Source: Polytrichum commune (lineage: Eukaryota > Streptophyta > Polytrichopsida > Polytrichales > Polytrichaceae). From it: DNA of 64,000 bases. The notes below the pieces were generated by a model that did not search any database, had not been told where the DNA came from, and saw only the letters and a list, made by a program, of their open reading frames with translations. Location of the stretch: assembly GCA_950295325.1 (NCBI GenBank), contig OX485806.1:30568001-30632000 (forward strand), in the 5' to 3' direction. This document shows, one piece after another, positions 13,256 to 60,184 of the stretch (within the stretch, counting starts at the first letter, position 1; each line of letters begins with the position of its first letter). Position numbers and translations under genes: made by a program.

Positions 13256-13310
13256 ATATTAACCGTAACTTGAATACATTGATATTTACCACCATACTAT
13301 CTTTGCGAAG

Positions 13311-19011: not shown

Positions 19012-19103
19012 AAACTTTGATGATTTTGGGTTTGTACTTGGACTCTCCATGTAAATATCTAACATTTCTCCCCTTATCTTTGTAATGTATTTTTGTGTCT
19101 TAG

Positions 19104-20258: not shown

Positions 20259-20310
20259 CTTAAATAGTCTCAAAATTAACAAAAAGTCTCCAAATAACGA
20301 ATATAGTGTT
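20259..20310. repeat. Right terminal inverted repeat of E2
   Basis: TTAAATAGTCTCAAAATTAA, CAAAAAGTCTCCAAATAACG and AATATAGTGTT; A-side end type. Flank AGGTGGTACTTCTTAATG is T-gene coding sequence. Confidence 0.85.
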
Positions 20311-23650: not shown

Positions 23651-23697
23651 TATTAATTTGAGACTAGAGAAAGTCTCAATTTAACGAATATAGTGTT
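23651..23697. repeat. Right (T-side) terminal repeat of E4
   Basis: ATTAATTTGAGACTAGAGAA, AGTCTCAATTTAACGAATAT, AGTGTT. It contains an internal inverted repeat GAGACT...AGTCTC that distinguishes T-side from A-side ends. Confidence 0.9.
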
Positions 23698-36895: not shown

Positions 36896-39470
36896 TTATA
36901 AATAAATTATGTTTGTGGTCCATTCCAAACCAAGTTGAATTCTCAACCTCTTGAATGTAACTTTGCCCAACAACTTAGTTAGAATGTCGGCCAATTGGTC
37001 TCTAGTAGAAACATAATCTAGAGTAACTTGACTTGATATCCTTTTTCGAGGATGAAGTGGTATTGGACATCCACATGTTTTGTTCGAGAATGAAAAACTG
37101 GGTTGTGAGCTAACTTTAGACTTCCATGATTGTCCCCTAAAATCATTGTTGGAGTTGTGCCTTGAAGTACTTGAATTTCTTGGAGTAGTTTGTGCATCCA
37201 TATAGCCTCCTTCGTTCCTATTGTAAGTGCCATGTATTTAGCTTCAGTTGAAGAAAGTGATACTATAGTTTGTTTTTTTGCTATTCCAAGTAATGGGTGT
37301 TTCTCCGATCCCAACCTAAAGAGATATCTTGTAGTGGTCTTTCTAGCATGTGAATCTTCTGCCCAATGTGCGTTTGCATATCCAATTAAGATATTTGAAT
37401 CTCCTTGTTTGTAGCACAAACCTAGGTTCTTACTCCCCTTCATATATTTAAAGATGTGTTTAACTACTAGCATATGAGGTACTTGAGGTTCATGAAATAT
37501 GAACTCCATTCCTAGTGAGTGAGAGAGAATTCCTAGGTCTATCATAGAGATTTGTTTCTTGATTTCTTCTCATAGCTAGTTGATTTCTCAACATCGTTAC
37601 TAGTCTTCTAGAGATCATCTAAATACAGAATGACTATAGCTATTTTCCCTTCTTCCTCAAAATAATAGAGATTGTATATTTCCTCACTTAAGGAGTATAT
37701 CTTACTATACCATGCACTGGGGGCTTGCTTAAGCCCATAAAGAGCTTTAAAAAGCTTACATACAAATTCTTTTCTGGCGACCATTCCATACCCCTCTATT
37801 TGCTCAATATAGAAATCCTAAATAATGTTTCATTGAGGAATGCAATGACTACATCCAAATGAAAAATATTCTACCCCCTATGAGCAGCTAGAACCACTAA
37901 TGTGCGTAGAGTGTTCCATTTGAAAATTGGTACAAAAGCTTCTTCAAAATCCTCCCCTTCTTTTTGTTGGAACCCTCTAACTACTAATCGAGCGTTCAAT
38001 TTTGGGATATTTCCTACCTAATCTTTTTTCACCTTATACACCCACTTGGTCGTAATAGGAGTACGTCGTGGGGGCAAACAAATCAAGCAGCTTTGCTTAG
38101 ATGGGGGAGGAGAGTGTGGAACTCATGTTTTCTTAGACTTCATGAATGAGAAAAGAAAGGAACACCAAAAAACTCAGCCTCACACACCACACCAAAACGG
38201 TGTGGTTGATGCATCATCAAGAAGTTCAAAGTTCTCTAAAACGTGTATTTGACTGGAGTCAAATTGGAGCTTGTATCCATCATCGGTCATTGAACCTACT
38301 GAAATAAGACTCTTCGTAAGGCCAGGCACATACAAAACTTCAGCAAATTTGATTCCATTGGCAGTAACATGCCCTTTTCCCTTGACAAAGAGAGAGTGAC
38401 CCCCGACAGTCTTCAGGAATGATCCTTCTACCGCTACAAGCTTTCCAAATATTTTCTTGTCAGGGCTTACACCCAGTGCTTTGTAGCCCCACTATCTACA
38501 TACCACTTGCCTTCTCCGAAATCAAGATTGGTTAGTTGTGCTTCTGTCATGTCTGAGGCATTGGAAAATTTCTCCCTTCATCCGAGAAATTGTCGGCCAA
38601 ATTTGCTAGAGCCCTAGGCGCGCGGAGCTCGCTTTTGGTTAGAGCCTCGATGTTGGATTTTTGCAGCAAGTTCTTCACATGAGCGCATGAAGTGACCTTC
38701 AACTCCACAGAATTGGCACATCCCAACCTTTCTAGTTGGTCCCCTCTGATTGTTTTGGCCACCAAATTGTGGACGTGTTTATGGATGGAACCCCTTGGGT
38801 CTAGCCTACACCATGAGGATTTCTTCCTCACGTTTCGACTTGCGCACTTCACGTCTGATTTCCTCATTGAGAAGAAGGAAAATGAGCTCCCAGAGAGTAG
38901 ATATCTTGTTGTGGTAGGCAATTGAGCTCACAAGTGACTCATAGGACTCAGGTAATACAGACAACATGTGCGCCACAACTTCATTGTCAAGGATCTTCTC
39001 TCTAAATCTGGCAAGTTGATTCACAAGATCTTACATTCCCTAAAGGAATGTGGAAATAGAGGACCCTTCCTCCATTCGAAGGTTTGTAAGCTTCCGACGA
39101 AGCAACGTGTGTCTTGCGTTATTCTTGGTGGCATACATGTTCTTCAACCTTTCCCAACACATAGCATGATTCACCATGTCTAGGATATATGGTACTACAC
39201 AATCCTTCACCGCCAGATTGATAATGGATAGGTTTCGCTTCTTTCTCCACTCTCTCTCTGCACTAACGTCAACGTCTTCAACTACTATCACTGTCTGAGT
39301 ATCCATCATCACTAGGTCCCACAAATTATCACGTTTTAGGAGATTCTTCACTTTAAAACTCCAACCATTGTAGTTGTGGGACCCTTCAAGTTTTGAGACC
39401 TCTGTTACTGCTCCATCACCGAGAGCCGATACACCGATCCTCTCTACCCCACTTTCCCTATGCTGAATTT
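36896..39470 (-). mobile_element. Decayed Ty1/copia retrotransposon
   Basis: Minus-strand order from the right: gag (39460-38806; LEGSHNYNGWSFKVKNLL, ARHTLLRRKLTNLRMEEGSS, VAHMLSVLPESYESL), a CCHC knuckle near 38690 (CQFCGVEGHFMRSC), protease near 38500 (WYVDSGATKH, then VLYVPGLTKSLISVG), reverse transcriptase piece near 37740 (YGLKQAPSAWY), RNase H (37545-37018; VSLSSTEAKYMALT, FHSRTKHVDVQYHF) and the C-terminal DYVSTRDQLADILTKLL. Numerous stops and frame changes; most of integrase and RT is missing. A plus-strand integrase fragment sits inside (38046-38252). Confidence 0.85.
38046..38252 (+). pseudogene. Copia integrase fragment in inverted orientation
   Basis: Reads LCLDGGGECGTHVFLDFMNE and TPHQNGVVDASSRSS, matching the end of the copia integrase core (R-S/T-D-G-G-G-E ... 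T-P-x-Q-N-G-V-V-E). It is opposite to the surrounding copia remnant, so it marks an inversion or a second insertion. Confidence 0.7.
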
Positions 39471-40433: not shown

Positions 40434-40492
40434 AACACTATATTCGTTAAATTGAGACTTTTTGGGCATTTTGAGACAATCACAGAAATAAG
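40434..40492. repeat. Left (A-side) terminal inverted repeat of E3
   Basis: AACACTATATTCGTTAAATT, GAGACTTTTTGGGCATTTTG, AGACAATCACAG. The A-side pattern (GAGACTTTTT...TTTTGAGAC) matches inverted E1 and E2 right ends. Confidence 0.85.
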
Positions 40493-40584
40493 AACAAGGA
40501 TAAATGGAACACATATTGGAGAAAGTTGTAAGATGCGAACACTTTGAAGCAGGTGTTTAGAACAAGAACCCCATTAATAACTCA

Positions 40585-40845
40585 TATTTGGGATTGTTTA
40601 GGGTGGGCAATCCAAACCTTAGGCCAAGTTGAAGGGGAAATCTTAAAACATTTATATTATCGCACAAAAACTTGTATGAATATGGTTTAGGTAGCGCAAT
40701 CCAAACCATAGATCATATTGAAGGGGAAATATGTGAACCAATATAATATAACATACAAAATATTCCAAACTCATATTTGTGATGGTTTAGGTAGGGCAAT
40801 CCAAACCTTAGACCATATGGAAGGGGAAATCATGTGACACTTATA
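40585..40845. repeat. Three subterminal repeats near the E3 left end
   Basis: About 95-bp units containing GGTTTAGGTAGGGCAATCCA, AACC, then TTAGACCATATTGAAGGGGA. Copies near 40594, 40688 and 40787. GTTTAGG...CCAAAC in each unit looks like a diverged word III. Confidence 0.7.
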
Positions 40846-40972
40846 TTATTGCAAAAAAAAACATACAAAGTGTGGCATGTAAAATGCATAGCATGCTAAC
40901 ACAACACATCCATTGGATAGTGCGACCCAAAATGTTCTTGCCTATGGCCCAAAACCCTACGCCTACTATGGC

Positions 40973-41789
40973 CTATCTAGCCTCGAAGACTACCTCTTTT
41001 TCTTTTGCTTCATTTTCTTTTGCTTTTTTTTCTTTTGCCTCTTTTTCTTTTGCCTCTTTTTCTTTTGCTGTGGCTTCTTTTGCTCGCATTGCTTCAACAT
41101 TCCTGAAAATCTCCGCCCCGCGACTATAGCCATTCTTGGGGTGACCGCCATCAATAACACATTTTGGATTCCGTCGGCCGCCCGAATTATACGACGAAGA
41201 ATTCGAATACGATGAAGTGGACTGTCTTGCATTTCTGGTCATGGAGTAGAAACGCTCCAACTCGACGGACGTACTAGCCCGCATAGGTTTACGGGTGGGA
41301 GCAACCTACAACGCGTGAATGCAAGAACACACGTGTTAGTTTAGGGAGCAAGACCCAAACGTGTCACACGTTCATTTTTTAAGTGCTGGATGATTGTAAT
41401 GCGCGGATAACCATGTTTAGGGGGGGGGGGTTCACCTTGTCACCGGGGGCGTTCCCGTTGGAGTCGGCGAGGAGGGGCAATGCGTCCCGCAAAGGAATAG
41501 GAAGGGTGCCACTCTTCGTAGGCCGAGCGTCCATCCGTAGCCGCCGTTGAGGTGTACTACTGCCGCCGGGCCGAGAGGGGGACGTCCGGACGCATTTGCG
41601 ATTTATGCCCTTGAGCGGCGACGGGGACGGAGATCGCCGGAAGATTTGCTTGGGTGGGGGGCTATCGACGACGCCGGCGTCAAGAGGCTCCTTGGAGTAG
41701 TCGATGGTGGACACGGCATCGTAGACGGTCTCGTAGAAGAAGCTCCCCAAGTTTGATTCGCTGACGATGTCAATCGAGGGCTCCAAACG
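40973..41789 (-). CDS. A3 exons 5-6: Ser/Pro-rich and Lys/Glu-rich tail
   Basis: Exon 5 is 41789-41436 (118 codons) and exon 6 is 41305-40973 (111 codons including stop). Exon 5 has VYDAVSTIDYSKEPLDAGVV, DSPPPK and SPSPLKG; donor GACAAG|GTGAAC. Exon 6 has GYSRGAEIFRNVEAMRAKE followed by repeated AKEKEAKEKE units. Phases are 0. It may be joined to exon 3 by skipping exon 4, or expressed alone. Confidence 0.65.
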
Positions 41790-41899
41790 CTGATGGGAAA
41801 ATTAAAACAAACAAAACCCAAGGGGAGGGGGGAGCATGTGAAAATCGATATACAATTGAGGCATAATATATCACACACAATGGCACACCATGTAGTATC

Positions 41900-42712
41900 T
41901 CAAATGAGTTTATTATATTTCGCGTGAGCGTACAACTCTCTGTACATATAGTCCTTCGGATCCATGTATCTTTCGCCTATCGGATTACAACTAAGGAACC
42001 GGGGCACGGGTAGTCCGCTCCCCACGAGCGTTTGAAGGTACTTAAGTAGGTCTAACAAAAAGCGGTCTCGGACCTTCTCGACCGTCCACGTGGGGCAAAC
42101 TATGAAGTTCGAGGTCGGGTTCAAAATGTTTTTGGAAGCGCTGTCGTCCACCATCAACGTGTTGTCACGGGTGGGACGAACGTCGTAGGGACAGCCGACC
42201 ATGGTCGGACGCTGGTCCCATACGACTGGCTTCAAGACCTTAAGAAATTGGTTTACGGCGGGGTTGTTGGGCTTCTTCACAACCCTGCCCTCGGGGGTGT
42301 ATAATGTTTTACAAGAATCTTGTCCTAGGACCAAGCACGGGGGTTGGAGTCCCTTGAAGATGAACTCCACGACGGCCTGGGTGTTCTCGGACTTCATGGA
42401 GCTCCACACGATCACCCACCATTTGGATAGGGCGACCTGCAGGAAGCGCCGAAGGGACGGGCGGAGGTACACTAGCTTGCTTTTGATGTACGCGGGGGGT
42501 CCATCGTAGTTGGTGTCCTCGGGCTTGCAGAAAGGCACCGTGGGGACCCTCGGACAATGCACGCATTGGACAAGGACCCCGTTGAGGTCTAGCACCAGGA
42601 ACCGGGTCTTGGGAGGCGAAGGTGGCGAGGGCAAAATCGGGGGGACCAGCATGCTGTCCTCCACGCTCCTCGGGGAGGACCGGTGGGGAGCCACGACACT
42701 ATGCTCCGATCC
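41900..42712 (-). CDS. A3 exon 4: FCP1-like HAD domain
   Basis: 271 codons with stop, acceptor CGCCGCAG|GGA. FLVLDLNGVLVQC (motif I with Asn), WWVIVWSSMKS, NQFLKVLKPVVW, TLMVDDSASKNILNP, end YNKLI-stop. More diverged from A1 and A2 than these are from each other, but the motif residues are the same. Confidence 0.8.
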   Translation of the reverse strand, partial: GSEHSVVAPHRSSPRSVEDSMLVPPILPSPPSPPKTRFLVLDLNGVLVQCVHCPRVPTVPFCKPEDTNYDGPPAYIKSKLVYLRPSLRRFLQVALSKWWVIVWSSMKSENTQAVVEFIFKGLQPPCLVLGQDSCKTLYTPEGRVVKKPNNPAVNQFLKVLKPVVWDQRPTMVGCPYDVRPTRDNTLMVDDSASKNILNPTSNFIVCPTWTVEKVRDRFLLDLLKYLQTLVGSGLPVPRFLSCNPIGERYMDPKDYMYRELYAHAKYNKLI

Positions 42713-43132
42713 CTGCGGCGACGAGCGAGAGAAGGCGGCGAGGACTATATTATGCTATGTTTAATTCAAGCAGAACAGAAATTTTGTGCAAACACAAGAA
42801 GAATTGGACCATTGGTGGCAACAAAAACATACAAGGGGAACAACATACATTGGGACACGGATGCTAACATATGGGCGCCAAAAATAATAATTTTATTGTT
42901 ACAAATCTCTATGTACAATTTGAGGGGGGGGGGGGCGCGGTGAACGAGGGCATTCACACTATCCTAATTGTACATCTACAAAATTGGTTGCGCGCCGCCA
43001 AGGTTGAGCGTAGTCGAGTGAGGTGAGACGAAGGGGATCGCGGGGGGAGCACGTTGTTGGGTGCGTCGGGGGGGTGTAGTTCCTCATAGCTAGGGGGGAC
43101 AAGACCACGCCAACAAGACAATGACCAAGGAG

Positions 43133-43545
43133 GTTTGGGTCGGTCAACCCAAACTGGGAGGGCTCAGTGTGTTACCTCGCCCTGGTCATGTCTCGACGAT
43201 GTGGATGCCTCCACCGTCCCCGGTGCCCCACCTCTCTCGCCACCGCCTTCTCCGCCTACGTCAAGGACCTTGTCCTGCAAAGGTTGAGCATCAGGCCCTT
43301 GTCCTAAACCAATCTCCGCATATGCATCATGCATGGGTTCATCGATTTGGTTAGGATTAGAGGTATCACCAGGCCCTTGGAGGCCTTCAACATCTAACAT
43401 GGTTGTGTCTCTTTGAGACACAAGTTCGTCAAGGGAGGACTGAGCTGCTCCGGGGTTTGGGTCGGGCGACCCAAACTGTCCTGCATCGGGGGAGGCGCCT
43501 TGGGGCACTACAGTCGAGGGTGGGTTTGGGTCGGTCGACCCAAAC
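43133..43545. repeat. Word-III sites in A3 intron 4 start and coding exon 3
   Basis: 43133-43154 lies in intron 4. 43455-43476 (spacer GG) and 43524-43545 (spacer GT) lie in coding exon 3, translated on the minus strand as FGSPDPNP and FGSTDPNP. Confidence 0.85.
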
Positions 43546-44728
43546 ATCCTGGGATCGTCCGGCTGGTGAGGGGGCGCCATCACTATGGGGGGTCGTAGTG
43601 GTGGAGGGCCCAACGGGGAGGAGGCTCCAGATACGCGCCAGATGTTGGGATCGTCCACTTGTTGGACCGGCGCGTACGGAACATGGGGCGGCTGCATCAT
43701 GTGTTGGAAGCTGAATGACCCTTGCGACACTGGGTGCTGAGGGATGCTCTGCGCTGGGAAACCGGGGGGCAAGTGCGGAAACGAGCTGGATGGAGCCACC
43801 ACCAATCCTTGCGCCCACATCCCTTGTATGACTTGCGATATCAAGTCGGCGCTGGATGGAGGTTGGGCCATCGCCCTTAGTCTTTCTTGTTCCAAGAGGA
43901 GAGCCCTCAGCTCTGTGACCTCGTTCCGCACGGAGGGTTCTTCCGCGGCAGCCCTCTGCAGGCGGACGCGCTGCTCCTCGTCTCTACGCATCTTCTCGTT
44001 GGCTTCCTCCACAGTGAGGACTTCGGGTTTCACCCTAACCATGCCTGCGAACGCTGTCGGGGAGGGGGGATCCGATCTGAGCCGTTTGGCGAGCTCAATG
44101 TCATCGTCGTCCTCGCTGCTAATGGCAATGGTCTCCTCCAATGCGTAATCGCCATAGAGCTTCTTTCCCTTTAACTTCTTCCTCTCCCGGAACGTGGCAG
44201 TCGCGTCCCTGGAGTACATGTCCCTCGCATCGTCCACCGTAAGGACGGGCATCATCTTACTCTGCGGGGTTGCCACACGCATAGCCCTCTTCCTCTGAGG
44301 GGCTTCAGATTCTTGCGTGAATCCCGTTGCCCCTTCCTCCACATCCCCCTCCTTTTCCTCCTCTCCGTGTTCTTCTTCTTCCTCCTCCTCTTCCACCTCT
44401 CCACCTCCTGTACGGGACGGATTGCCCGGATGCAACCCGACTAGAGGTTCGGGTAATTGGGTTGTTGCCCTCATCGCAATTTCTTCCGGGTTGATCTGCC
44501 TCGCCCTATCAAGAGGGTTCTCACCCCCCTCAACAACCTCGTCCACGTAGTTTCCCGGGATCCAATCGAGGATATCCATCTTCTTTGCCAGCGATTTCTG
44601 CGTCCTGTAAAATTGCAGATCGCTATCCTCTATGTACGAGTAGATGTTCAACCCCAACATCTACACAATCCAAGTTATATAGAAATTAAAATTTGCAAGA
44701 CAAAAAACAAGACCAAAAACAATATCTA

Positions 44729-44786
44729 GTTTGGGTCGACCGACCCAAACCAAGAGAGAGACTAGTTTGGGTCGACCGACCCAAAC
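44729..44786. repeat. Two word-III sites in A3 intron 3
   Basis: 44729-44750 and 44765-44786, both perfect arms with a two-base spacer, in a 154-bp intron. Confidence 0.95.
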
Positions 44787-46233
44787 TGCGCAAGAGCTAA
44801 AGAATGTAACTTACCATGGCAGCATAGAGGGGTTTCGAGCCCCCGAACACGTTGAAGATACAGTCCCCTCTCCTAGTCAGCGTCCTCAGCATCCGCATGT
44901 AGAATTCCATCCGCAGCTCATCTGCAGGATAGTTTGCGTATTTGGCCTCGTCGTATAGGCATTTGCTGGAACCTAACCCATCTGGAACTTGGAAGAGCTT
45001 GTCCATCCGGGATATAGGGTGGTTCGGCACCTTCAACAACTCCGCTTTGTACACGAAGTACAAACACAGGACGTTGACGACCTTGGTCTTCTTGTCCTTC
45101 AACGACGTGTAGGCCCCCTCCGCCGGTGCGGCGATGTAGTGAGACTTGGAGACTGCATACTCCGGCTGCAATTTCCGGACAAGGTCGTACACCTGCTCCG
45201 CCCTCCTATCCTCGACTATCCATAGCCAGACATCAACCTCCCTGAACTTAGGACTCGCATAATCGACGAACTTAGATAGGAAGGGGTCGTAAAACAGTGT
45301 GCTCATCGTACCCTCAAATGAGCTTCCAGGAATGTTCCTGAAATCTATCATTCCGAATGGGAAACGCCCCCCTGCTTTCGTCCTTATCGCCATTCTGGCG
45401 TCTTGACCTGGCCAGCCCTGAATTTTCAAAGGCTCGAAGGTGACAAGGTTGAAGTAAGCGTCCCCTTCAAACTGGACAATCTTCTTCTCCTTGATGAAGT
45501 TTGAGAACGCACGCGCTGTGTGATCCGGAAGCGCCCGGTTCTTCCCACCCTTCACCATCTTGGCCCGCAAGAAGTCATCCCCCGCTTCCCTTATTAGAGC
45601 CGCCATGGAGGCACTGGTGAACTTATATTCAGCTTTGAATGCTCTCCAGTTAGCCTCATGAACCTCGCCGTCCACGACAATATTCCTCTCCGGCACCAAT
45701 TTATGCAGCTCCTGCACTATAGTTGTCTTCTTTTTCCTATTCTCCGTCCATTCCTTCATGGTGTAGCATGAAGGGACGAAGGATTTGGGCTTTAAGAAGA
45801 CAATCTTCGGGTGCACCCAGCACCTTTTCGCCGTGGGCGTGAAATGCAGGATGTGCGCCGCCGCCTTCTCCATCTCCGTCTCGGAAAGGCCTTGAAGAGT
45901 TCTAAAGAACTCTCTCACGAGAGGCTTCATTTGTTTGAAGCGCGTGGTTTGGTTGAAGAAAATTCATGTGTCCGGGTCGATGAGCTCACCCGTCTCATGC
46001 TTCTCAAATACACTCTTCCACTTCATCCAAACGGAGTCGGATGTTGTTATTAAATAAATCTCCCCTCTAAGCTCGTTGTATTTCTTCTGTTTGTGACTAG
46101 CATTATCAATGGAGGAGAATTTATTTATCATTTGGTATTTGAAGTCCTGCATGTGATCAAAACAATCATTTGAATGCATGTTAGATATGAACATGTGATT
46201 TCCAAAACATATCATGACCAGTGTCTGCACCAA

Positions 46234-46440
46234 GAGTTTGGGTCGATCGACCCAAACTAAAAAAACATGACTGCAACAAGAGTTTGGGTCGATCGACCCA
46301 AACTAAAAAAACATGACTGCAATAAGAGTTTGGGTCGATCGACCCAAACTAAAAAACATGACTGCAACAAGACTTTGGGTCGAGCGACCCAAAGTACACA
46401 AATAAAGCTGCAAAAGGAGTTTGGGTCGATCGACCCAAAC
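46234..46440. repeat. Five word-III sites in A3 intron 2, about 46-bp spacing
   Basis: 46234-46257, 46281-46304, 46327-46350, 46371-46394 and 46419-46440. Spacing of 44-48 bp and shared flanks (AAAAACATGACTGCAACAAG) show a tandem origin. Confidence 0.95.
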
Positions 46441-47800
46441 AATACTCACCTCCCACTTGGGATTCTTGTCCTTTGCATTCTCCCTCTCCTTGGGAGGCCT
46501 ACCATAGAACTCCCACACCTCCCGCGAGGCCATGATATTCCTTATCCAGGAAGCTTGGTAGGCCCTTTTCTTATTCCCCATGTTAAAGTAACGGGAGATG
46601 TCGCTCAGTCGGGTCTCATCGTCAGACCACACCACCAGTGCCTTCCACACCTTCAACTTCTCCTTCTGATGGTTGGGATCGTCCCACTCAGTCATCAGTT
46701 GGATTTTCTTGGAAGCCTCAACGCTGTGTTGGCCGTCTATGAGCCAAAAATCGCCTTTTTGAATTGTCGCCCACATTTCAGGGGTAGGCATTCTCTTCAG
46801 TCCCTGGGGCATCACTACAATGGTTTGCCTGTCGTCTTTGAATTGTTCGCTAACGATCTGCGCGATTATCCAATCGACGTAGGCGTCTTCTTTTGCCCGG
46901 ACACATTTTTCTGGTGGCGCGAGATGACACTGACTGATGTTCACGTCGAATTTGAAATCCCTGCCCATGAAAAAGCAATGGGAGCACTTGGTCGTGAAAT
47001 TGTTCACGATTTTTTGGATCTCCCCTGCATCCACTTCCTGCCCTGGCTTCGGCATGCGCAATTCTGGAGAGACTGGCTCGTCAGTCATCACAGATGACTC
47101 TCTCGCCCTCTTGGAGGGAGTTGTTTGGCGGCTGCCAGAAAGCGTAGGAGTCTGGTTATCCGCCGGTGTCTCCGATGGAGTGGTTCGTCTTGAGCTAGCC
47201 GGGACTGGTTGCGGTATCCTCACCGATTGAGGCCTTGACGACCCTGCACCTTCCTCAGTGGGTACCTTCCGCCTGACGGCTTGCTGAGACTTCGTTTTGC
47301 TCTGCAGGGCTTTGTTGAGCACGCTGATTGCATGCTTTAGTTTCGTAAACCGGCTCGAGACCTTTGTGTTCGATGTACTGGCATCGATGAAAATTGTCTC
47401 GGGTTTGATTACATCAGGTTCGACACATGACTCCCTTGCATATGTAGCGTCAAAGGGTTCGACGAACTGGTGCAGAAACATATGAGCATTCTGCACAGCG
47501 CTGTTCTCAAGGATGACGTCTGCGTAGTCTCCAAAAGACTGGACCGACGCCACCTCCCATCCCGTAAGAGTCGCCCAGGTATGTTTTTCCACGGTCCCTA
47601 CTTTGACAACGAATATCAGTTTGTAAATGGAGGTTTTTACTACTTGAATTGACCAGGCGAGGACAAGCCCGTCCTTAGGGACATATGAGTCATCCTGAGG
47701 TGTTTCGTGCTCCTGCCATAACACGTCTGGCGCAAGCATGAACCACCTTTCTCCTGGTCTTTTCTTTGGGGCCATCTGCAAAGAAAGAAGCAAGGATGTT

Positions 47801-48232
47801 AGTTTCGGTCGTTCGACCCAAACTTCTTCACAATAGATTAGATGTCACGTGATGGAAGGGAAATGTAATGCATCAACGCATTTATTTTTGGATTGTGTCT
47901 TGTTATTTTAGAACTTCATTTATATGTTTATATGGTATTTCGTTATCTTGGGTGGATTTGCGTTTTATATTGTCATCAAGGATTTCTTGAAAAGTTTATA
48001 CTGTAGAGGTTGCGTTTGGGTCGACCGACCCAAACAGCAGGATGTGCTTTGGGTCGATCGACCCAAACTATAGGCTGTGTTTAGGGTTTAGGGACCCAAA
48101 GCACATCATGCTGTTTGGGTCGATTGACCCAAAGCACATCATGCTGTTTGGGTCGATTGACCCAAAGCACATCCTGCTGTTTGGGTCGATCGACCCAAAC
48201 TATAGGCTGTATTTGGGTCGTCTCCCCAAACT
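47801..48232. repeat. Word-III cluster in A3 5' intron, partly a 35-bp tandem repeat
   Basis: Sites at about 47801-47822, 48014-48036, 48048-48069, 48111-48132, 48146-48167 and 48180-48201, with degenerate ones near 48078 and 48212. The middle ones repeat GCACATCATGCTGTTTGGGT-type units every 35 bp. Confidence 0.9.
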
Positions 48233-48351
48233 GTTCTATTTTAATATAGTTTTTTAAACTTGGCATGTAGCATATACAATGCTTATGCATTGTGTATGCT
48301 ACAACACTGTCAATTAAGAAACACATATTGGAACCCCTTGAAAAACAATAC

Positions 48352-49200
48352 CTTTGCTGAGGGTTTCTGTTGTAGTCGTTGCAGATGGTTGCTTTTGAAC
48401 AAGTGCTCTTCTTCGACTAAGACAGAATCAGTGAATTCCTATTCGCAGACACGCTAAAACTCACAAACAACTACCAAAGATTTCAAACCTTTCTTGAATC
48501 TCTCAATAAACCCACAATCTCTCACACAACTCCTGAGTCTCTTCATAATCACTCAAACAACAATTGTAACTCTCAAACAACAACTGAGTCTGTTAAAACA
48601 ACAACTGAATCTCTCAAAACAATAACTAAATCTCTGAAAGCACTTTTGTATCACTTTTGTATCTCTTATAGAACTTCCTAATCTGACAAGCACTCACATG
48701 CACTCACAAGCACTCACATGTACTCACAAACACTCACATGCACTCACAAGCACTCACATGCACTCACAAGCACTCACAAGCACTCACATGCACTCATCCG
48801 CACTTCGAACTCTCGCAAGCACTGCCTAAAGCTCACACAGAATGTTGGAAAACCCTTCAACAATCTGGAAAACACTTCAACAATGCTATATATTGCAACA
48901 CTAGTGCAATCTCCCGCTACAGCAAGAGAAGGGAGGGAAGGAGAAGAAAAAAGGGTGGAGAAGGAATGTAAAGAAAAGCGCCACCCTAAATCGCCACGGC
49001 GCTTCAGGAGAGGCGGCGCTTCCACAAGAGGCGCGGAGCGAAAGGTTGGCGGGAGAGAGAGAGAGAAAGGAGGAGAATGCTTGGCGGCTGGGGTTTTGTT
49101 ACCCTCGGGAATTGGCCCCCAACCGCGCGAATAGGGTGCCAACGTGATTAGGGCAGCAACGGGAATAGGGTTACGGGGAACCCTAACTCCCATCCCTCTA
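48352..49200 (-). promoter_or_regulatory. Promoter and non-coding first exon of A3
   Basis: Donor CAGCAAAG|GTATTG at 48352/48351 on the minus strand, and the acceptor at the A3 ATG. The exon upstream is rich in GAGAGATT and TTGTTGTTTGAGAG units, as in A1. A TATA-like ATATATAG lies near 48888-48895 on the minus strand. GC-rich DNA at 48.95-49.2 kb may belong to the upstream promoter. Confidence 0.45.
48690..48795. repeat. Minisatellite of CACTCACAAG/CACTCACATG units
   Basis: About ten decamers CACTCACATG or CACTCACAAG in the 5' UTR region of A3. Confidence 0.85.
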
Positions 49201-51480
49201 AGGAGTAAACCCTTAGCGGGTAGTACAATTTTGAATAGACTTTGGAGTAGCCTAAGGTATACATCAAATGAGGTATTCTAAAAAACTAAACCATTTATAC
49301 AACTAATACATCTTTACAACGCAACTTTATGCTAACACTAATACTTAATTCCTACTTACATGACACCATTAACTAAATTTTCCAAACAAGTTGAAGTCAT
49401 TGGTTTCTCGTTTGTTTGAGCACGTTATAAAAAAAATACAATTACGTGCCAAATACAATAGACTTTACCATTGATGCCAACAACTCACACAATATGCAAT
49501 GAATAAAAAAGACAATCCCCACCCCCCAACATGAAATTCGGAAATTGAGGATATTTGAATGTGGAGCCTAAATGAATACCTTCCCCAAGTGCATATTGTG
49601 AGGGTTTGGAATTGCATGATCTTTATTTCAAAATGCTAACATGCTCAAGTTTTATAGGGTATCCCCTAGATATTCACTTTGATGAATCACATAGTCGCCA
49701 ATAAACCATGGATCGTGATATATGTACTTGGAATGTGATATAAAAGCAAATCGGAGAACCACAACATCATATGAAGCCCTTCAAGCAATCATGTTGTTAT
49801 TGAAGGTTCGCTCCAAGTATATTAGATAATGGCGCAAGACAAACTTGATGTTGTTTGTATATGGAGGTAGCACTGAACAACTACAAGATTTGGGGTTTAG
49901 GGTTTAGGGTTTAGGAGTCATGGTTATAACATATTAATCTATCCAATATTAACGTACAACATTGACTTACTGGTGAGAAGAGTCTTATAGGAAGGTTATA
50001 GTAAAGATGATGTTGAGTATGTTAAGTTGTTATTTGGGACGTTTAAACGTGATATACTAATTGGTCTTGTGTTTATTCAAATAGCATTTCATGTTGTGGA
50101 TGTTATTAGGACTTAGGGGTCTAACTTTGGATGTTTTGCTCCCTTTGATGAATCACATAGTCGCCAATAAACTATGGTTCGTGATGTATTTAATATATGG
50201 AATGTGATATAAACGTAAATCGGTTAAGCACAACATCAAATGAAGCCATGCAAGCAATCGTGTTGTTGTTCATTGTTCCCTCCACGTATATTAGATAATG
50301 GAGAAAGATATAACATTGTCAAATGTTGTTTGTATATGAAGAAGAGTCTAATAGGAAGGTTATAGTGAACACAATCTTGATCATGTGAATATGTTATTTG
50401 GAACGTCTAAACATGATATACTAATTGGTGTAGGGTTTAGTCAATATGTATTTCATGTTGTGGACGTTATAAGGGTTTAGGGTTCAACTTTGGATGTTTT
50501 GTGCACACACATTAGTAACCTTGAAGTGAACTTGAGGATGGATTCAATTAGCATGGAAATATTGAACTCAAAAGCGACATTGGTAGTTAGTATCCCCTTA
50601 TCGACGTCCACATACATTCGTCATTGCCACAGTTGCATGCGAGAGAATAGGACAATATTGTAGGGTTTAGGGTTTAGGGATGACAACATATTATATATAA
50701 AAGCTCTTGTCACTTGCATTGTTGCAAATTCAGATTTGGAACAATAAATGAACTTTGTCATGACATAATTTGATTTCAAAATTAATAATTCCCCTTGCGA
50801 GGATCTTCATAACCACTTTAACTATTGTATTTAGTGACTCTTACCATAAGGCGTTACACAATGTTTAGACTTCTTTTGTCTACATATTGGTTAATGCCAT
50901 ACCGTAATGTTTGAATTAAAGTAGATCAATATCATCATTTAATATGTATATGATGCATTAGGGTGACATTGTAGAAGTTTTTGTTTGATCCATATATTAA
51001 TTTGAGACTAGAGAAAGTCTGAATTTAACGAATATAGTGTTACATACGTTTATCATTGCCACACTTCCATGCGAGATAATAGAGCAATGTTCTAGGGTTT
51101 AGGGTTTAGGGGAGACAAATAAATAATTTTATTCATCATGACAATGGCCTCAAGCCTTGGAAACTCTCTCATAATTGCAGCCTCCAAATGGCCCCAACCC
51201 CACCGAAATAGGTTTGCACTTGAAAGCATTGAATGGAGTTGTGGTTGGGTATACATATTGGTTAAAATATACCGTTGTGACACTTGAAAAAATTAATGTG
51301 GCCGCCACCCTTCCTCCCAATGTCGTATGTCATATACACACAAAACCAAAAAAAGATTAAATATCATAGACTAAATCATATGACGGCTGGGGTATGAGAG
51401 GGGCATTGAAAGATGCGCATTTTCTACAATAAACAGAAAACGGGGAATTCTGTCAGGAGGTTTGAAATAACAAGGCGGGA
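49201..51480. other. Central intergenic region of E3
   Basis: AT-rich non-coding DNA with two large direct repeats: 49677-49830 with 50145-50300 (GATGAATCACATAGTCGCCA...), and 49977-50140 with 50340-50505 (AGAGTCTTATAGGAAGGTTA...). It also has telomere-type TTTAGGG runs near 49893, 50663 and 51095, and an extra T-side terminal repeat ending at 51041. Confidence 0.6.
50994..51041. repeat. Extra T-side terminal repeat inside E3
   Basis: GATCCATATATTAATTTGAG, ACTAGAGAAAGTCTGAATTT, AACGAATATAGTGTT. Nearly identical to the right end of E3 and E4. It is probably the end of a short non-autonomous relative nested in E3; its other end is not clear (an ATTCGGAAATTGAGGA-like stretch near 49540 is a weak candidate). 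Confidence 0.65.
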
Positions 51481-51485
51481 AAGGC

Positions 51486-51660
51486 ATCCAATGAGGAAGT
51501 CGGGCAAGTGGAGGTGGATAGTATAAAGGGGCGCACCCCCCAAAAGTTGGTTTTTTTTGCTCTTCTCCCACTCCTGAATTCGTAGAGAGAACTCTTAGTC
51601 GGAGCTGTACTTCGAGGTTCGTTCACGCTGCTGTTCATGAGGACCTATCCACAGCATGCA
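51486..51660 (+). promoter_or_regulatory. Candidate promoter and 5' UTR of T3
   Basis: CCAAT-like ATCCAATGAG near 51486, TATA box TATAAAGGGG at 51521-51530, then a GC-richer leader. The coding ATG is at 52978 after a TGTGTGTAG acceptor, so a 5' intron of more than 1 kb holding the word-III array is likely. The donor was not fixed. Confidence 0.5.
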
Positions 51661-51757
51661 AGTCCGCAGTGAACTTTGCAATGAGCTGAAATTCCACACA
51701 CCTCTCAATATCCGCTGCATCATACGCCGCATTATACGCTGTATTATACGTCGGTCG

Positions 51758-52777
51758 ACACTAGTGTTGGCGGGTTCCAGTCTGACCCTTGTGAGGTTTG
51801 GGTCGGTCGACCCAAACCCCTCCAGTAGTGTGGGCGGGTTCTAGTCTCACCCTTGTGAGGTTTGGGTCGGTCGACCCAAACCCCTTCACTAGTGTTGGGG
51901 GGAGTCTACTCTGACCCTTGTGAGGTTTGGGTCGGTCGATCCAAACCCCTTCACTAGTGTTGGGGGGGGGTCTACTCTGACCCTTGTGAGGTTTGGGTCG
52001 GTCGACCCAAACCCCTTCACTAGTGTTGGGGGGGGGTCTACTCTGACCCTTGTGAGGTTTGGGTCGGTCGACCCAAACCCCTTCACTAGTGTTGGGGGGG
52101 GGGTCTACTCTGACCCTTGTGAGGTTTGGGTCGGTCGACCCAAACCCCTACCCCACTGTGGGCGTTTATCGTAAAACCTTTTAGAAGGTTTGGGTCGGTC
52201 GACCCAAACCCCTACCCCACTGTGGGCGTTTATCATAAAACCTTTTAGAAGGTTTGGGTCGGTCGACCCAAACTTTTTCGCACATCGTGAACGAATTGTT
52301 AATGGCCCTTACCCAAGGTACTCAGAAGGTTTGGACGGACAGAGTAGGAACCTTATCCCATCATATGTAATGTTTGGGTCGAGCGACCCAAACCTCATCC
52401 CAGTGTGGGTGGATTTACACTGTGAAAGTTTGGGTCGACTGACCCAAACCCTTTCCCGGTGTGGGTGGACTTACCCTGTGAAAGTTTGGGTCGACCGACC
52501 CAAACCCCTTCTGAGTGTGGGTGGGTTTACCCTGTGAAAGTTTGGGTCGGTCGACCCAAACCCCTTCCCCAGTTTCGGCGGTTGTAGTTGACCATGACAA
52601 GGATTGGGTCGGTCGACCCAAAGTTTTCCCCACAGTGTGATGGAATTCTAAATGGCCCTCAACCCATCATTGTACAAGGTTTGAGTCGGTCGACCGGAAC
52701 CCGACCCTATCCCACGGGCAAGGTGTGGATGGCCCTCAATCCCTGGTGCCACAGGGTTTAGGTCGGCCGACCCAAAC
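51758..52777. repeat. Tandem array with fifteen word-III sites upstream of T3
   Basis: Sites at about 51795, 51859, 51924, 51990, 52056, 52123, 52187, 52251, 52372, 52428, 52484, 52540, 52602, 52678 and 52753. The first six lie in units of 64-67 bp (CACTAGTGTTGGGGGG..., length differing by G-run). Later units are 56-65 bp with other flanks. Spacers GT, AG, CT and AC are seen. Confidence 0.95.
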
Positions 52778-52977
52778 TCCCACCCAAAATATTTTGTGGA
52801 ACATTTTGTGGACTGGCGCACAGTATTGGGAGCTCACATTGCATTTGTGTTGCAAATGTCTTGATCCTCAGTGTCCCCATTCATCGTGATGTTTTGCATT
52901 TTCCAATATTTGATTCTTTTGGACCCTTACGTTGTGTCCATGTTTGTTGAGGTTTCATGTGCATGTGTGTAGGCGTA

Positions 52978-55900
52978 ATGGAGGGAGTTGGTGGAAGAGG
53001 GGATTCCTTCTCTGAAGACATGGGCAGCACCCAATCTCTGTCTGGGGATGAGCTAGACATTGTCGGGGAGGATAGTTTTGATGACAGTGCAGATGAAGGT
53101 CATTTGGGGAGTCCTTCGCCATCTGACCCTTTTTGCCCCATTGTGGAATGTGCGGGACTTTCACGAGCTTCATGGGTGAATTTGGATGTGGTACTTGTTA
53201 ATGACAGTGGAGTTGCTGTGGCGGAGGGTATTTGTCATAACACACATCCACAAGATTGCATTGATGAACACCCCCTTGGCACCGAGGACGTTGGAGTTGT
53301 TATATTAGAATCACTCGTACATTCGGAAGTCAATCCAACTCATAGGTTCTCGTTGCGAAGGTAGCCGTTGAGGAATGTGACAATTGAGGGGGTTAGCTTG
53401 CGCGACCATGAGCGACGACACGTCCAAATCCAACAGGAGCTCCAAGCAAACATTCGGCCACGCAAAGGCCTTCGGAAGTACGAAACATTGACACGTCCTA
53501 CTCCGTCTGCAAATAAGTGTAAACGTCAAAGGTTGCTCTGTGAGGAGTCTATTAGAGAAGTTGCTACGAAGGATTGTTGTGTACATCGTTGTTGCCAATT
53601 GTTCCCAAGAGATAAATTGAAGGCCATCCGTAAAGAAATGTGGCTTGGAGATTTCCGTCTAAGATCCACCAAAAAACTTGATGTCCATAGGGCAATACAT
53701 GTGAACGGAGCGGGTCGCAAGGTCATCACCCTTGAGAGCATAGACGTGTGTTGTACGGCATGGTACACCATTCATGGTGTGTCGAAAGCGGAATTTTATA
53801 GACAAGCCGCGTATGCCAATGAAGGCCGCCGTGCCCGTCACCATGGGAACATGGGCTTAAAGAAACCAAGAGAAGCAACGAGACAAGCAACAGCCACTTT
53901 GGCAACCACCATTGTCCCCCTTGCCGATGCAATGCCGTACAAAACACGCACACTCGCAACCGGTGAAAAGGTTGTGGAGAAGGTTCTTCCTACAGGCACA
54001 AAATGGAAAGACATATTGTTGGACGTAAACGCAGTTGGCGAGAAGGCCGGGTTGGACCCAATTTCGTTGTCGAAACTGAGTGCTATCAAAAAATCTCACT
54101 TTAGCGAATACATCACAAAAAGACGAGGCGACAAATTTGCCCGTTGTTCCAAATGCGAGAAGTTGAAACGCCTTCGAGATGCACACACGATGGGGACAAA
54201 GTCCTATGCCGCACATCAAATGAACTATTTCAAGCATGTGAACATGCAAGAGGCACACCGTAATGATTACTACACAAATAGAACTTTGTCCATCTCCAGG
54301 CCTTTGGAAGTCCTTACAATCATCCATGACAAAACAGCCTCACCATGTTTTGCAAATCAAATCAAAGCCACGGACGGCCTTTTTAAGCTTCCTGTTTCGG
54401 TTACAGGTGATTTTGATAACAATTGCATTGCATTACCTAAACACAAATTTGTGCGTTTAGGTTTGTACTTGGGGCCATACATGTACACCATGTGAATTTT
54501 TTGGTGTTATAGTTGAATATTAAACCATTGGGTTGCCTTTGCAGGAATGATTGCACATGGGCATGGTGATGTCAAATATGCTCATTATGCTCTTGATTTG
54601 TATCCGGCGGATTCAAACCACACGATAGGGTCATTTGCAAAGCTTTTACGTGATTTGGAGAAACCGCCGTCCTATTCATCAAGATTGTTATTTGAAAACT
54701 CAGGATCAACACCTCTATATGAAGTGGTCTTGGATGGAAGAGATGTATGCGTGCACTCATTGCCGGAGCCACCAAGTGAAGATGTGATTGCCAAGAATTT
54801 GCCCCCAACTCTGCGTGTCCAATTGGACAATTATGCGAAGGACAATAAAAGTAGATATGTTTTTGCATATTGGTCGTTGTTGGTTGCGAAAGGCATTTTC
54901 AAGGAGGTTTTTGTGTCCTTTCTATTGGTAGGCCACATGCACGATGATATTGATGCGTCCTTTGGGCGGTGGAGCATGAAGTTGCGCGAGGAGGATTTTC
55001 CAACAATCCCATTGTTGATGAAGTCGTACATGGATTTGGAGAAGATTCCCGTCATCCCCCATATGATCGAGGAGGTTCCAGACTTCAAGGCATTTATAGA
55101 ACCGTATATTCGAAGCGGAGCTCACCGATTGATCGGGCATACGAATGCACAACAATTTCGGTTCTACGTGCATGACGATGGTGTCCCCGCCATGCAATAC
55201 GAGTTGTTGTGCACGTCACAAGACTGGAGCCCGCCAGAGGGTCTCCTTGTATGGCGTGTTGATGGGGAAGGAAGGACGATGTTGCCTGACGGAGAGCCCA
55301 TGAAGAATTTGGAGGACATTTGTAAAGGCATATCAGGCTTCATACAATATTGGGAGAGTTTGAGGGTAGCGGATGTTGGTGGATCGTGTTGGCTTCGTTA
55401 CGGAAGTTGGATACAATATTGGACACGTGTTCGTGGCGCTTTGGCAAACCTTCATCAAGATACACCCCTTACTTTAAGGCATGGGTTTTGGCCACAAACA
55501 CGTGTCAATGTACAAGCTTCGGAGGCTAGTCTTTTGGGAAATGGAGAGGTTCGAGAGGAGTTTGATGTGGACGACCATTACATGGGGCCTGCTAGTAGTC
55601 GTCCGCCACCATCTTTCCGCATTGCAGTGGATTGTCATGAAGGTTATATGCTTATTTTGCGTCCTGGAGATGAGACATATGCAAAGCCAGTGTGGGTGGC
55701 AAGAGCTTTGTCCAAACCAAATTTTGTAACTTCCAGCCCTCATTTTCGACAAATACAAGTAGAGTACTACCGACCGACAGCACGGAATGAAGATGTTGTT
55801 CGGCATTATACAGGCTGGGATACAAACCAACACTTTCGGTGGAAGGTGGATTTTGAGCATGGTCCATCTTGGGTAGATACATATTCCATATTCATAGCAT

Positions 55901-56010
55901 GGAAACCACGGAAAAATCATAGTGGATCAGTGTCCATCCCTCAAAAGTACATAACTTTTGCAAAAGACAACCTTGCTCGGATCGCAGAAGAAGCAACCCA
56001 CGTTGAATGA
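52978..56010 (+). pseudogene. T3: DUF7869-like putative DDE transposase with a nonsense codon
   Basis: Exon 1 is 52978-54406 and exon 2 is 54545-56010, phase-1 intron, 964 residues if read through. Acidic N-terminus, KDCCVHRCCQLF, ARCSKCEKLKRL, VQLDNYAKDNKSRYVFAYW, SFLLVGHMHDDIDASFGRW and a conserved C-terminal module (FRIAVDCHEGYMLILRPGDE). Damage: TAG at 53362-53364 where T1 and T4 have Trp. In addition, five codons (MDHAK) present in T4 at 21459-21473 are absent near 54331, in a box that in this family carries a conserved acidic residue. Divergent to A3 in the same element. Confidence 0.8.
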
Positions 56011-56493
56011 GAAGTTGGTAGGATTGTGTTAGCATGATTATAGTGTAAACAGTAATTCGATGAATATATATTACTCATATGTGTGCTCCTTAAACTTGGG
56101 GCAAAGTTTGGGTAGAACTTGCGAATGCTATATTGTTTGGGGTTGGATGAATATCCATTTACTATATTTCAATACAGTTGTGAAGTTCATTTTTTTTATT
56201 AAGTTTGGGACTAAATTTTCCATTGAAGAAAAATGCATTTATTGCATGCACTTTGTATGTTGCAATGTCTATATTTTATTGACCATGCTAATAATAGAAA
56301 TCATTTTATATGTTACTTGGGTGAAACTAGTTTGGAGTGCTCTACCCAAAGTGTTTTTGTAGATGAAGTTGGTGTTGAGTGCTCTACCACATGTGCTTAT
56401 GTCCACACATAATAGATTTGGGATATTAGAACATATAATATATTTGAGATCGTTCTCAATATAGTTTCGGAACACGGAATGTTGTTTGATCCA

Positions 56494-56542
56494 TATATTA
56501 ATTTGAGACTAGAGAAAGTCTCAATTTAACGAATATAGTGTT
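56494..56542. repeat. Right (T-side) terminal repeat of E3
   Basis: ATATTAATTTGAGACTAGAG, AAAGTCTCAATTTAACGAAT, ATAGTGTT, followed by the flank AAGG. Confidence 0.9.
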
Positions 56543-57180
56543 AAGGGAGGGATATTATTTTTCTCTAGTGTGTACATAAAAAAGAACCTATTAGAATATT
56601 TGAAGTAAAGGGAGATGTAAAAAAGGGTTTAATGCAATCATTAAGTTGTATGGTAATATGGATGAAAATATGCTCAATGACTTTCTCATTGGAAAGTGAA
56701 AGTGAAAGTGAAAGTGGACAATAATGAAAGACAATTTTAATCTTGATTTACATTTTGTATGTGTAGTGGAGGCATTTATTACATTAACTAGAATATCTTA
56801 GAATAAATACACGAGTCAATTTTCCAACATGCCGTTGGTACGTATACATTCTCTATAAACATCTCGTGTATAAGGGGTTTAATTTCATAGTGACCTATGC
56901 GTGCCATTTAGATTTCCAATAAAGAATCCACCTCCGGGTTGCTCGTTAGGTAACAATTAAATAGGCAATTGACTAGGGGTTGGCTGCGACAGTTAACCCA
57001 TGTGAAAATTGTTCAATATACCCCCCATTGACATGGCGCAACATGACAAACGCCGATGTGTAATCTCTGTTCATTGCTGATTTGTAATGATATTGTAGGT
57101 TTTAAGGCAACCTTAAAATGGAATATCTTTTGCTAGAAAATTTGAGCACTATAAACTTAATTTTATAATTGATATGATGA
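56543..57180. other. Non-coding DNA between E3 and repeat R copy 2
   Basis: AT-rich, with a short GAAAGT triplet of hexamers near 56694. No gene seen. Confidence 0.5.
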
Positions 57181-57808
57181 TCTTGATAAAAGAGGTACAG
57201 TGAAATTAATTCCGAGTCTTCTTGCATTGTCTGCTATTCAGAGGTGTGGTCATTCCTCTCAATACAATTAATTTACTTCAATTCATTGCTGCTCCCATCC
57301 CACCAGCAAAACCCCGGAAAAACAACCGATCACTACACTAAATATTGTATGTAATGTCTTATGGTATTTTTATTTTATGTCACTGTGGTAATTTTCTAAT
57401 GAGACTTCTTATGAATAGGTTTACAAATTTTGTCATCCCCATTTACTTTTAGTTCATCCTTTTTATATAAAAAATTTAATTTTTGTATAAACTGTATCCT
57501 GAAATTTTTGTAATGAAGTACTGTCACTGATGATTGAAATTGAATGAAAATTCACTTAGTAAGTGACATTATTTGCAACACTGTATATCTATAATTTAAA
57601 GTTTAAAAAAAAGAAGGAATGACAAATAGCATTAGGTTTACATTCAGTGTTGGTGACACTAGTTTATCTTTAAGTCCACCAAGTTTCTCCTGTCTGGGTT
57701 TCTCACACATGTGTGTTCACTGCACCGGTGCATTAAACTAGTTATGCGAAATTCAATCCGCCATTAATTTGCATTTGAAATCCGAAGAGACTGTGAATGC
57801 TTGGTGTA
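57181..57808. repeat. Intergenic repeat R, copy 2
   Basis: Matches 23698-24325. Here it continues leftward without an E4-type end, so it serves as the empty site for E4. On its right it is interrupted at TA by a pogo-like element. Confidence 0.85.
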
Positions 57809-59757: not shown

Positions 59758-60184
59758 ACAGGGAAGGTAGGGGTTTTTACCTGATTCAACAAGTGGGGAA
59801 TACTCTTATCTTTCCCACATAATAAATACTAGGAAACGGTGAAATGCGTTTACCATGTGGAATAGTGTTGCTTAGCTTAGAAAGGAACTTAGAAACATAT
59901 CTTCAAGAAACTACGAGTATCCCTCCAAGTGCAGAGTAACCCTAGTTTCGCAAAACAAAGGATGATTTTCAAAAACCAAAAGTTAGAAGAAAGAGAAAAG
60001 TGGTCATCCCACTCCTTCGACCACCTGGATTGATGACAAACTTGTTTCATGCCCACATTGAACCTACACTACACTACACTACACTACTCCCTGCCAATAA
60101 AACCCTAAAAACAGAGAAACACGAGAAAAAACCTTCCCAGCCGAACTTCCAAGCCGAAGAGAAATAATCCGAACTTCCTCCTGG
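59758..60184. other. Short non-coding stretch with (CACTA)n run
   Basis: About five CACTA units near 60066-60090. No gene seen. It might be the end of the Tnp2-like transposon, but no matching inverted end is in the window. Confidence 0.4.

Follow-up and report, generated by a model that had tools for sequence, protein, structure and literature searches.

The 64-kb window analysed here is a stretch of the Polytrichum commune genome (assembly GCA_950295325.1, contig OX485806.1, positions 30,568,001 to 30,632,000). It carries three copies, named E1, E2 and E3, of a large DNA transposon with two divergent genes: T, which encodes a transposase with a DUF7869 domain, and an accessory gene, A. Both genes of a copy are accompanied by sites of one palindromic word, some 10 to 30 in all, and the prevailing word is different in each copy (word I in E1, word II in E2 and word III in E3). 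E1 is 15.3 kb and E3 is 16.1 kb long, and T3 shares 61% identity with T1 and 64% with T2; each of E1, E2 and E3 represents a separate lineage of one transposon. In the 10 kb read to the left of the window there is part of T2 with six upstream word-II sites, followed by the left end of E1. E1 thus sits within E2, with T2 and this word-II array on its left and A2 on its right, and this nesting keeps words I and II apart along the window. The transposon is abundant in the genome. Its end gave 1355 and 1362 matches per strand with up to three mismatches, whereas the reversed pattern gave 60 and 57; three queries with A exon 1 gave 958, 948 and 907 first-look candidates (150 scored each), and T gave 1582 and 1593 (123 and 121 scored).

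Each word was used to scan the whole window, with the central NN left free and up to four mismatches allowed elsewhere. Word III is TTTGGGTCG-NN-CGACCCAAA, word I is TTTACGAACG-NN-CGTTCGTAAA and word II is TTTACGGACG-NN-CGTCCGTAAA. The earlier note on this DNA had counted about 30 copies of word III around A3 and upstream of T3, and the scan agrees closely: A3 has 17 sites (43134-48199) and the region upstream of T3 has 15, with 30 of the 32 within one mismatch. Word I, which the note had placed around A1 and upstream of T1, has 18 sites at the former (4612-9992) and seven at the latter, 25 in all. As the note had also stated, E1 has no site that fits word II or III best, and E3 has none that fits word I or II best. 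Its claim that E2 uses word II was right in the main. Ten word-II sites (12653-17953) and a weak one at 19576 (four mismatches) were found in E2, but together with one perfect word I just before A2 and one site at 16347 that fits I and II equally. Four of the five word-II sites upstream of A2 lie within a 135-bp tandem repeat (12625-13120), which means that some word copies spread inside larger units. Seven further weak word-III-like sites with three or four mismatches were seen, at 40686, 40786, 40912, 41340 and 56331 in E3 and at 23486 and 58914 outside it. In each of five dinucleotide-Markov versions of the window, a word matched once at most. The features are collected in Table 1, where exon and intron limits of A were taken from open frames and donor sites, that is, from sequence alone.

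Table 1. Transposon copies, genes and word sites in the 64-kb window (positions are those of the window).
Feature	Position	Strand	Remarks
E3, complete transposon	40434-56542	.	ends AACACTATATTCGTTAAATT..., target duplication AAGG on both sides
A3 exon 1	46450-47775	-	open frame; N-terminal domain, basic linker and DGQHS domain (predicted ParB/Srx fold by model, residues about 274-403)
A3 exon 2, conserved part	44812-45930	-	open frame
A3 exon 3	43164-44660	-	low complexity; likely splice donor at end (by eye); word-III sites within coding sequence
A3 NIF/SCP-like phosphatase domain exon	41900-42754	-	DLNGV replaces DxDxT/V; assigned via E1 homologue
T3, transposase gene, DUF7869	53365-56010	+	PF25273, 131.3 bits (cut-off 26)
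Word III, 3 sites	43134-43544		in or beside A3 exon 3
Word III, 2 sites	44730-44785		A3 intron between exons 2 and 3
Word III, 5 sites	46237-46439		A3 intron 1, last directly after exon 1 splice donor
Word III, 7 sites	47803-48199		upstream of A3 start, 6 within one mismatch
Word III, 15 sites	51797-52776		upstream of T3, 14 within one mismatch, mainly 56- and 64-66-bp tandem repeats
E1	1-12324 in window (-2976 to 12324)	.	start 2976 bp left of window; GATT on both sides; inserted in E2
T1	leftward from about 134
A1 exon 1	5130-6426	+	frame broken in window copy; single open frame in other copies
A1 exon 2	6541-7878	+	open frame
A1 exon 3	8042-9520	+	open frame
A1 NIF/SCP-like domain exon	10091-10864	+	PF03031, E 9.4e-16, 58.3 bits (curated cut-off 21.8)
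Word I, 7 sites	716-1566		upstream of T1
Word I, 7 sites	4612-5098		upstream of A1
Word I, 2 sites	6432-6511		A1 intron 1, near both ends
Word I, 2 sites	7897-8034		between A1 exons 2 and 3
Word I, 7 sites	9037-9992		in and past A1 exon 3
E2, right part	12325-20310	.	cut off from T2 by E1; A2 on + strand
A2 exon 1	13512-14800	+	frame broken in window copy; single open frame in other copies
Word II, 5 sites	12653-13332		upstream of A2
Word I, sole perfect site of E2	13435-13456		just upstream of A2 start
Word II, 5 sites	14819, 16300, 16393, 17820, 17932		A2 introns, exon 3 and just after exon 3; last two with 4 mismatches

Exact copies of the words were counted in the whole genome: 2909 of word I, 1147 of word II and 9731 of word III, while the reversed patterns occurred 0 times each. 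With the Markov controls (0-1) and the reversed patterns (0), the words are seen to be far more frequent than expected at random, and chance as their source is rejected. We then compared word and A gene over 55 loci (20 A3-type, 19 A1-type and 16 A2-type), which were picked from ranked lists and spread over the range of identity, not drawn at random. The dominant word was III in 20/20 A3-type, I in 19/19 A1-type and II in 16/16 A2-type loci. The T side was read at 16, 9 and 10 loci of the A3, A1 and A2 lineages, respectively, and among the elements for which both sides were sought, the words on the A and T sides were the same in 25 of 28 (9/9 A3, 8/9 A1 and 8/10 A2); three elements (L081, L083 and L084) were uninformative and none was discordant. 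This tally includes L062, L080 and L088, for which extra flanking sequence was read, and L086, which was judged via listed word positions. For L083 and L084 no T-side array was found, even in the wider stretches L094 and L095. At L081 word III stands beside an A1-type gene, which might be taken as a contradiction; the sequence there is 85% identical to 43233-44988 (A3 exon 3), so it belongs to a separate A3-type element. The single weak word-III-like site of L039 was also set aside, as it has the same letters as the site near the E3 end at 40912. At the word-I locus L097 (1-3101), tblastn found only an NIF remnant of A, and nearby word-I sites often have a GG/CC centre.

The word is a property of the lineage. 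It is unchanged across A sequences about 80% alike (A2 and A2') or about 73% alike (exon 3 of A3''). The latter is a further A3-like branch, represented by four elements on contig C1 that were outside the three A lists; they carry word III, and their identities are 70-74% for exon 3 in the longest matches, 69-77% for the NIF domain and 83-85% for the first part of T. Seven further loci of which the T side only was read (L066-L072) also had word III. Word III stays the same where T drops to about 81-85% identity with T3. Thus the word outlasts 20-30% divergence of A and does not change with T. The earlier note had proposed an element-specific recognition code and expected the dominant word to be shared by A and T within elements and not between them. 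The code itself is supported by the 55/55 loci, the 25/28 elements and the conservation of the arms described below, but its unit had to be revised: the word is shared between the elements of a whole lineage, and word III is shared as well with a second family, which resembles Mutator-like elements (MULEs).

This second family, which we call M, was found through word-III arrays in a 6.1-kb stretch at 2.15 Mb of C1 (L099), where tblastn found neither A nor T. In a wider stretch the transposase was read by eye as MULE-like, and its SWIM-type finger had a Pfam E value of 0.073, below the cut-off. A gene divergent from this transposase has a first exon with FFIWDGNHRFFAW, that is, a DGNHR box, and the word-III arrays lie between both genes and within the transposase gene. 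Of the 9731 word-III sites, the 100 listed with their places are all on C1: 81 are in three A3-type elements, five in element M and 14 at 438-478 kb. In this last stretch both loci read (L098 and L100) are M-like, an M-type DGNHR match lies at 479.5 kb, and three of the sites, near 462.9 kb, lie outside the loci read.

The words might be sites to which the transposase binds for end pairing or target immunity; in favour of this, many DNA transposons have subterminal repeats that their transposases bind. The arrays here, however, lie upstream of genes and in introns and not at the element ends, and word III is constant both at about 81-85% identity of T and in a MULE-like element with another transposase. 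The presence of word III beside a different transposase argues against the transposase as the reader, and on this ground, together with the constancy of the word across T divergence, we reject it in that role; we regard transposase-binding sites as a very improbable explanation of the words.

The DGNHR exon gave 1198 first-look candidates (150 scored). Word III was present in 4/5 of the M-type promoters read, with 6-12 sites within one mismatch, and no array was found in the promoter read of L115 (80% M-type). Among eight promoters of a more distant type, M2 (about 44% identity), four had a palindrome near GGGTTCGG-NN-CCGAACCC, two had GTGTCTCGG-NN-CCGAGACAC, and two (L116 and L120) had no array; the two M2 word kinds go with a 24% difference in the DGNHR exon. 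Candidate word IV has 124 exact sites in the genome (control 0). For the candidate words IV and V the case is weaker than for I-III: the centre hardly varies, and each may be a mere part of a longer repeat. When profiles of A and of the DGNHR exon were compared, the two boxes were aligned over 20 columns with a score of 22.6 and a probability of 3.9 per cent, while the highest of 30 column shuffles scored 18.9 and the reversed profile 14.8. This no more than suggests homology of A and the DGNHR exon. Two different transposases are thus each accompanied by a DGxH-box gene beside palindromic arrays, and word III goes with both.

One host reader of word III would be expected to give just this picture, the same word in two families with very different DGxH proteins. 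It could be imagined that host factors, one per word, read the arrays, each lineage having recruited a different host regulator, while A does something else. Such an explanation needs a separate host protein for each of three or more words. It is also at odds with the concentration of the words on the transposon's own genes, beside which A is kept by selection, and we consider it unlikely.

Selection on the words was examined within lineages. Divergence in word columns is 0.040 (III), 0.035 (I) and 0.052 (II), compared with 0.197, 0.279 and 0.238 for flanks within 40 bp and 0.097, 0.211 and 0.206 for the other aligned columns, including exon 1. The word arms are thus about 5-8 times less diverged than the flanks within 40 bp. 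The site after the donor of A intron 1, whose donor context was read in other copies, has near-constant arms within each of the three lineages while its centre and flanks vary, and it is a different word in each lineage. In an old copy, L051, the two arms of a word II near the intron-1 donor carry an identical CpG-type change, which is what deamination of methylated CpG would produce. Neutral spread of functionless tandem repeats within each lineage could account for the many sites in tandem arrays and for candidate words IV and V with their nearly fixed centres. It is at variance with arms that are conserved while centres and flanks vary, and with a site at one intron donor that has a different word per lineage; we give it scarcely any credence.

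The words are perfect inverted repeats and some lie in introns beside splice sites, so they might act in RNA, as hairpins or by mutual pairing that aids splicing or forms double-stranded RNA. Changes in one arm numbered 159, 65 and 119 for words I, II and III, against complementary changes in two arms of 13, 8 and 0; non-complementary two-arm changes were 4, 1 and 14. It means that sequence, rather than pairing, is kept, and pairing in RNA is rejected as the main constraint. T-side arrays are also 0.6-1.6 kb upstream of the T frame, and a role of the words in RNA is to us extremely unlikely.

Words I and II differ by one base per half-site. Half-I/half-II hybrid sites were seen in four loci. 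This relation, along with the word I kept before A2, suggests a stepwise change of the code.

Protein A was analysed by its exons. For exon 1, dN/dS (the ratio of nonsynonymous to synonymous divergence) was 0.06-0.13 in the five of ten pairs with measurable dS (0.7-1.5; one A3-type and four A2-type pairs), and in the other five, which include A1-type pairs, dS was saturated and dN was 0.08-0.09. The DGQHS box is invariant in the alignments made of A, one of which holds seven exon-1 sequences. Searches of exon 1 against Pfam, NCBIfam and PDB sequences gave only weak matches: GHBP for A3 (E 0.0012, below its own cut-off and mainly over the linker), Cas1 in PDB (E 0.28) and, over the DGxH box of A1 and A2 sequences, GmrSD_N, Vac_ImportDeg, DUF6551 and DUF1015 (E 0.06-0.13), GmrSD_N reaching E 0.057 for one A1 sequence. 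The A3 DGQHS domain alone had no Pfam match. Of these, DUF6551 and DUF1015 are relatives of ParB. DUF262 (GmrSD_N) is described as having the ParB/sulfiredoxin (Srx) fold (PMC4619093; here and below, published systems are described from those parts of the cited papers that were available). An AlphaFold2 model of exon 1 was built from five window sequences. In VIA-align its best match had Z 9.3, with a root-mean-square deviation of 2.3 over 95 residues. The top 23 rows, with Z from 9.3 down to 6.0, were ParB, Noc, PadC, KorB, sulfiredoxin, SbnI and the uncharacterised Atu1540, and the next row, the first unrelated chain, had 4.5. In Foldseek the first four matches were KorB (E 0.08-0.17). A ParB/sulfiredoxin fold is predicted for the DGQHS domain from this model, and it is the agreement of the VIA-align rows together with Z 9.3 that gives the fold call its weight. 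Pattern-seeded scans confirmed no relatives of A in viral contigs and prokaryote genomes, and none of the DGNHR exon in viral contigs. Only four PF02195 matches occur in the genome, all in the small contigs C10, C12 and C23, which are probably bacterial contamination of the assembly.

The NIF-domain exon is 45% identical between E3 and E1, and PF03031 was scored on the E1 copy. Its nearest PDB chains are SCP1, SCP2 and an SCP-like protein (E 0.002-0.04). In 7/7 copies read, DxDx(T/V) is replaced by DLNGV, with the second Asp changed to Asn. Because of this replacement, the domain may bind phosphorylated tails rather than cleave them. The window copies of A are partly damaged: a stop codon lies in the frame entering exon 2 of A3 (45960-46452), and exon 1 of A1 and A2 is also broken.

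Besides the three copies, several remnants lie in the window. A 5'-truncated T of another lineage (20313-23700), 81% identical to T3 over most of its length, ends at a transposon end, and its relatives (L066-L072) have word-III arrays upstream. Inverted T-end copies at 55503-56542 and 58744-59760, matching at 95-98%, indicate a partial second transposon beside E3 (55503-59760). Inside E3, between A3 and T3, there is a transposon end at 51029, which may mark where a small nested copy once sat. Open frames at 60185-63577 have a weak tnp2 (Transposase_21) match (E 8.7e-06, below the cut-off) and are probably a CACTA-like remnant. Frames at 37018-37569 and 39040-39468 resemble, by eye, pieces of a Ty1/copia retrotransposon, and a fragment at 58295-58747 has a weak DDE_1 match (E 0.0023, below the cut-off).

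From these results we lean towards the view that A is a lineage-specific palindrome-binding protein which keeps its own transposon transcribed, by anti-silencing or by activation. A dimer of A would bind the word of its lineage in the promoters of both A and T, and also in the introns of A and in those of its coding stretches that tolerate such sites. Palindromes are also what ParB and KorB bind. Bound A would then keep the A and T genes transcribed. Word and A would have changed together, so that each A would serve its own lineage. The words, their fit to the A lineage at both genes, their conservation and the selection on A are direct results; that A binds the word and thereby affects expression is what we infer here. 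A is proposed as the reader because the word is constant when T changes and because a DGxH-box gene is common to both families. A factor covering the transcription unit as a whole would fit the spread of sites over promoters, introns and soft coding spots of the two genes.

A might instead repress, as KorB or phage repressors do, and so limit its own expression and that of the transposase, and thus copy number. The closest Foldseek matches of A are KorB, a plasmid repressor, and the words lie upstream of both genes and near the A start. The families, however, have hundreds of candidate copies and no obvious restraint, and the many intron and coding sites suit spreading or anti-silencing better than blocking of an operator. 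Repression appears to us quite unlikely. Anti-silencing or activation was taken as first choice on the precedent of VANC in Arabidopsis, with repression second.

Several observations weigh against A as the reader that keeps its transposon active. Only three A-word lineages were found, so the agreement of word and A reflects few independent events, and the same data fit activation and repression alike. The DGNHR protein of M is barely similar to A3, yet word III is common to both. A perfect word I stands before the A2 start in 7/16 A2-type loci, and similar sites do so in five more, with one mismatch in L049 and two in L048 and L050-L052. The margin of word III over all other columns is smaller (0.040 vs 0.097), and alignments of repeat arrays may favour the words, which is why the one fixed site at the intron-1 donor was also examined. 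As for the fold, the exon 1 model had a mean predicted local distance difference test (pLDDT) value of 43.6, with ten-residue blocks at 51-76 over residues 251-400. In VIA-align, best Z values of 7-8 are frequently seen even where a model matches nothing clearly, Foldseek gave no match at E 0.001 or better, and a PF02195 (ParB) search of the whole genome had no match to A. The exon 2 model (mean pLDDT 38.6) gave no helix-turn-helix and no meaningful structural match.

A bolder form of the proposal is possible, though we hold it doubtful. Two unrelated DNA transposon superfamilies of eukaryotes (DUF7869 and MULE-like) would each carry a ParB-fold protein that loads at parS-like palindromes private to its lineage, spreads along the element as a clamp, marks self and shields the element from silencing. 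Word and protein would change together, and M would have hijacked the word of the more numerous A3.

The earlier note had compared the system with VANC proteins of VANDAL elements, in logic and not in homology, and this comparison fits. VANC binds to short motifs arranged as tandem repeats in the noncoding parts of members of its own family (PMC5735166); methylation is lost along the element, and the motif changes between families (PMC5735166, PMC10398659). Both VANC and A are accessory proteins encoded by a transposon, with a motif that differs between families and is repeated in their own noncoding parts; some word sites here are also in coding sequence. The VANC6 motif is found in the unrelated AT9TSD1 (PMC5735166, PMC10398659), as word III is in the MULE-like element. 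VANC has DUF1985/DUF287 and belongs to Mutator-like VANDAL elements, whereas A has ParB/Srx-like (predicted) and SCP-like domains beside a DUF7869 transposase. No DUF1985/DUF287 was reported in A exon 1 (seven proteins, E<=5) or in exons 2-3 of E1 and E3 (E<=0.1), the presence of these models in the library being unconfirmed. VANC motifs are 8-9 bp, with palindromy not described in the available parts of the two papers (PMC5735166, PMC10398659), whereas the words here are palindromes of 18-20 fixed bases.

Likeness to other systems is partial. The CTP clamps ParB, KorB and Noc (PMC12704722) share with A the predicted fold of the DGQHS domain and a mobile-element context, and the several palindromic sites that occur together with A are candidate counterparts of their cognate sites; A differs in belonging to a eukaryotic transposon, in its SCP-like domain and in being undetected by PF02195. 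A 2025 survey describes the ParB fold in eukaryotes mostly as sulfiredoxin, and its main text, as available, does not contain 'transpos' (PMC12704722). DGQHS of A and DGNHR of the MULE-like element resemble the signature box of DGQHR/DndB and GmrS (DUF262) proteins (PMC4619093), but A lacks the terminal R of the DGQHR pentapeptide and has S in its place, FxxxN is not evident by eye, and no modification or restriction partner was seen. With the SCP/NIF phosphatases of the RNA polymerase II C-terminal domain, A shares the PF03031 match at 58 bits and the SCP-type nearest PDB chains, unlike them having Asn for the second Asp. Diverse fungal DNA transposons also carry a gene linked to removal of methylcytosine, a TET/JBP dioxygenase, which unlike A is an enzyme acting on methylcytosine (PMC12730594). 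No published description of a system such as the present one was found among the papers listed in a search by title and start of abstract, most subscription journals being outside that search.

If the proposal is true, self-marking by transposons, known from VANC of Arabidopsis, arose also with a quite different protein fold. Several words with candidate readers in one genome, and one word in a second family, would make a natural series for the study of how a recognition code changes on dozens of sites. The palindromes of 18-20 bases are far more specific than the 8-9 bp motifs of VANC, which could make them useful as orthogonal means of marking DNA in plants.

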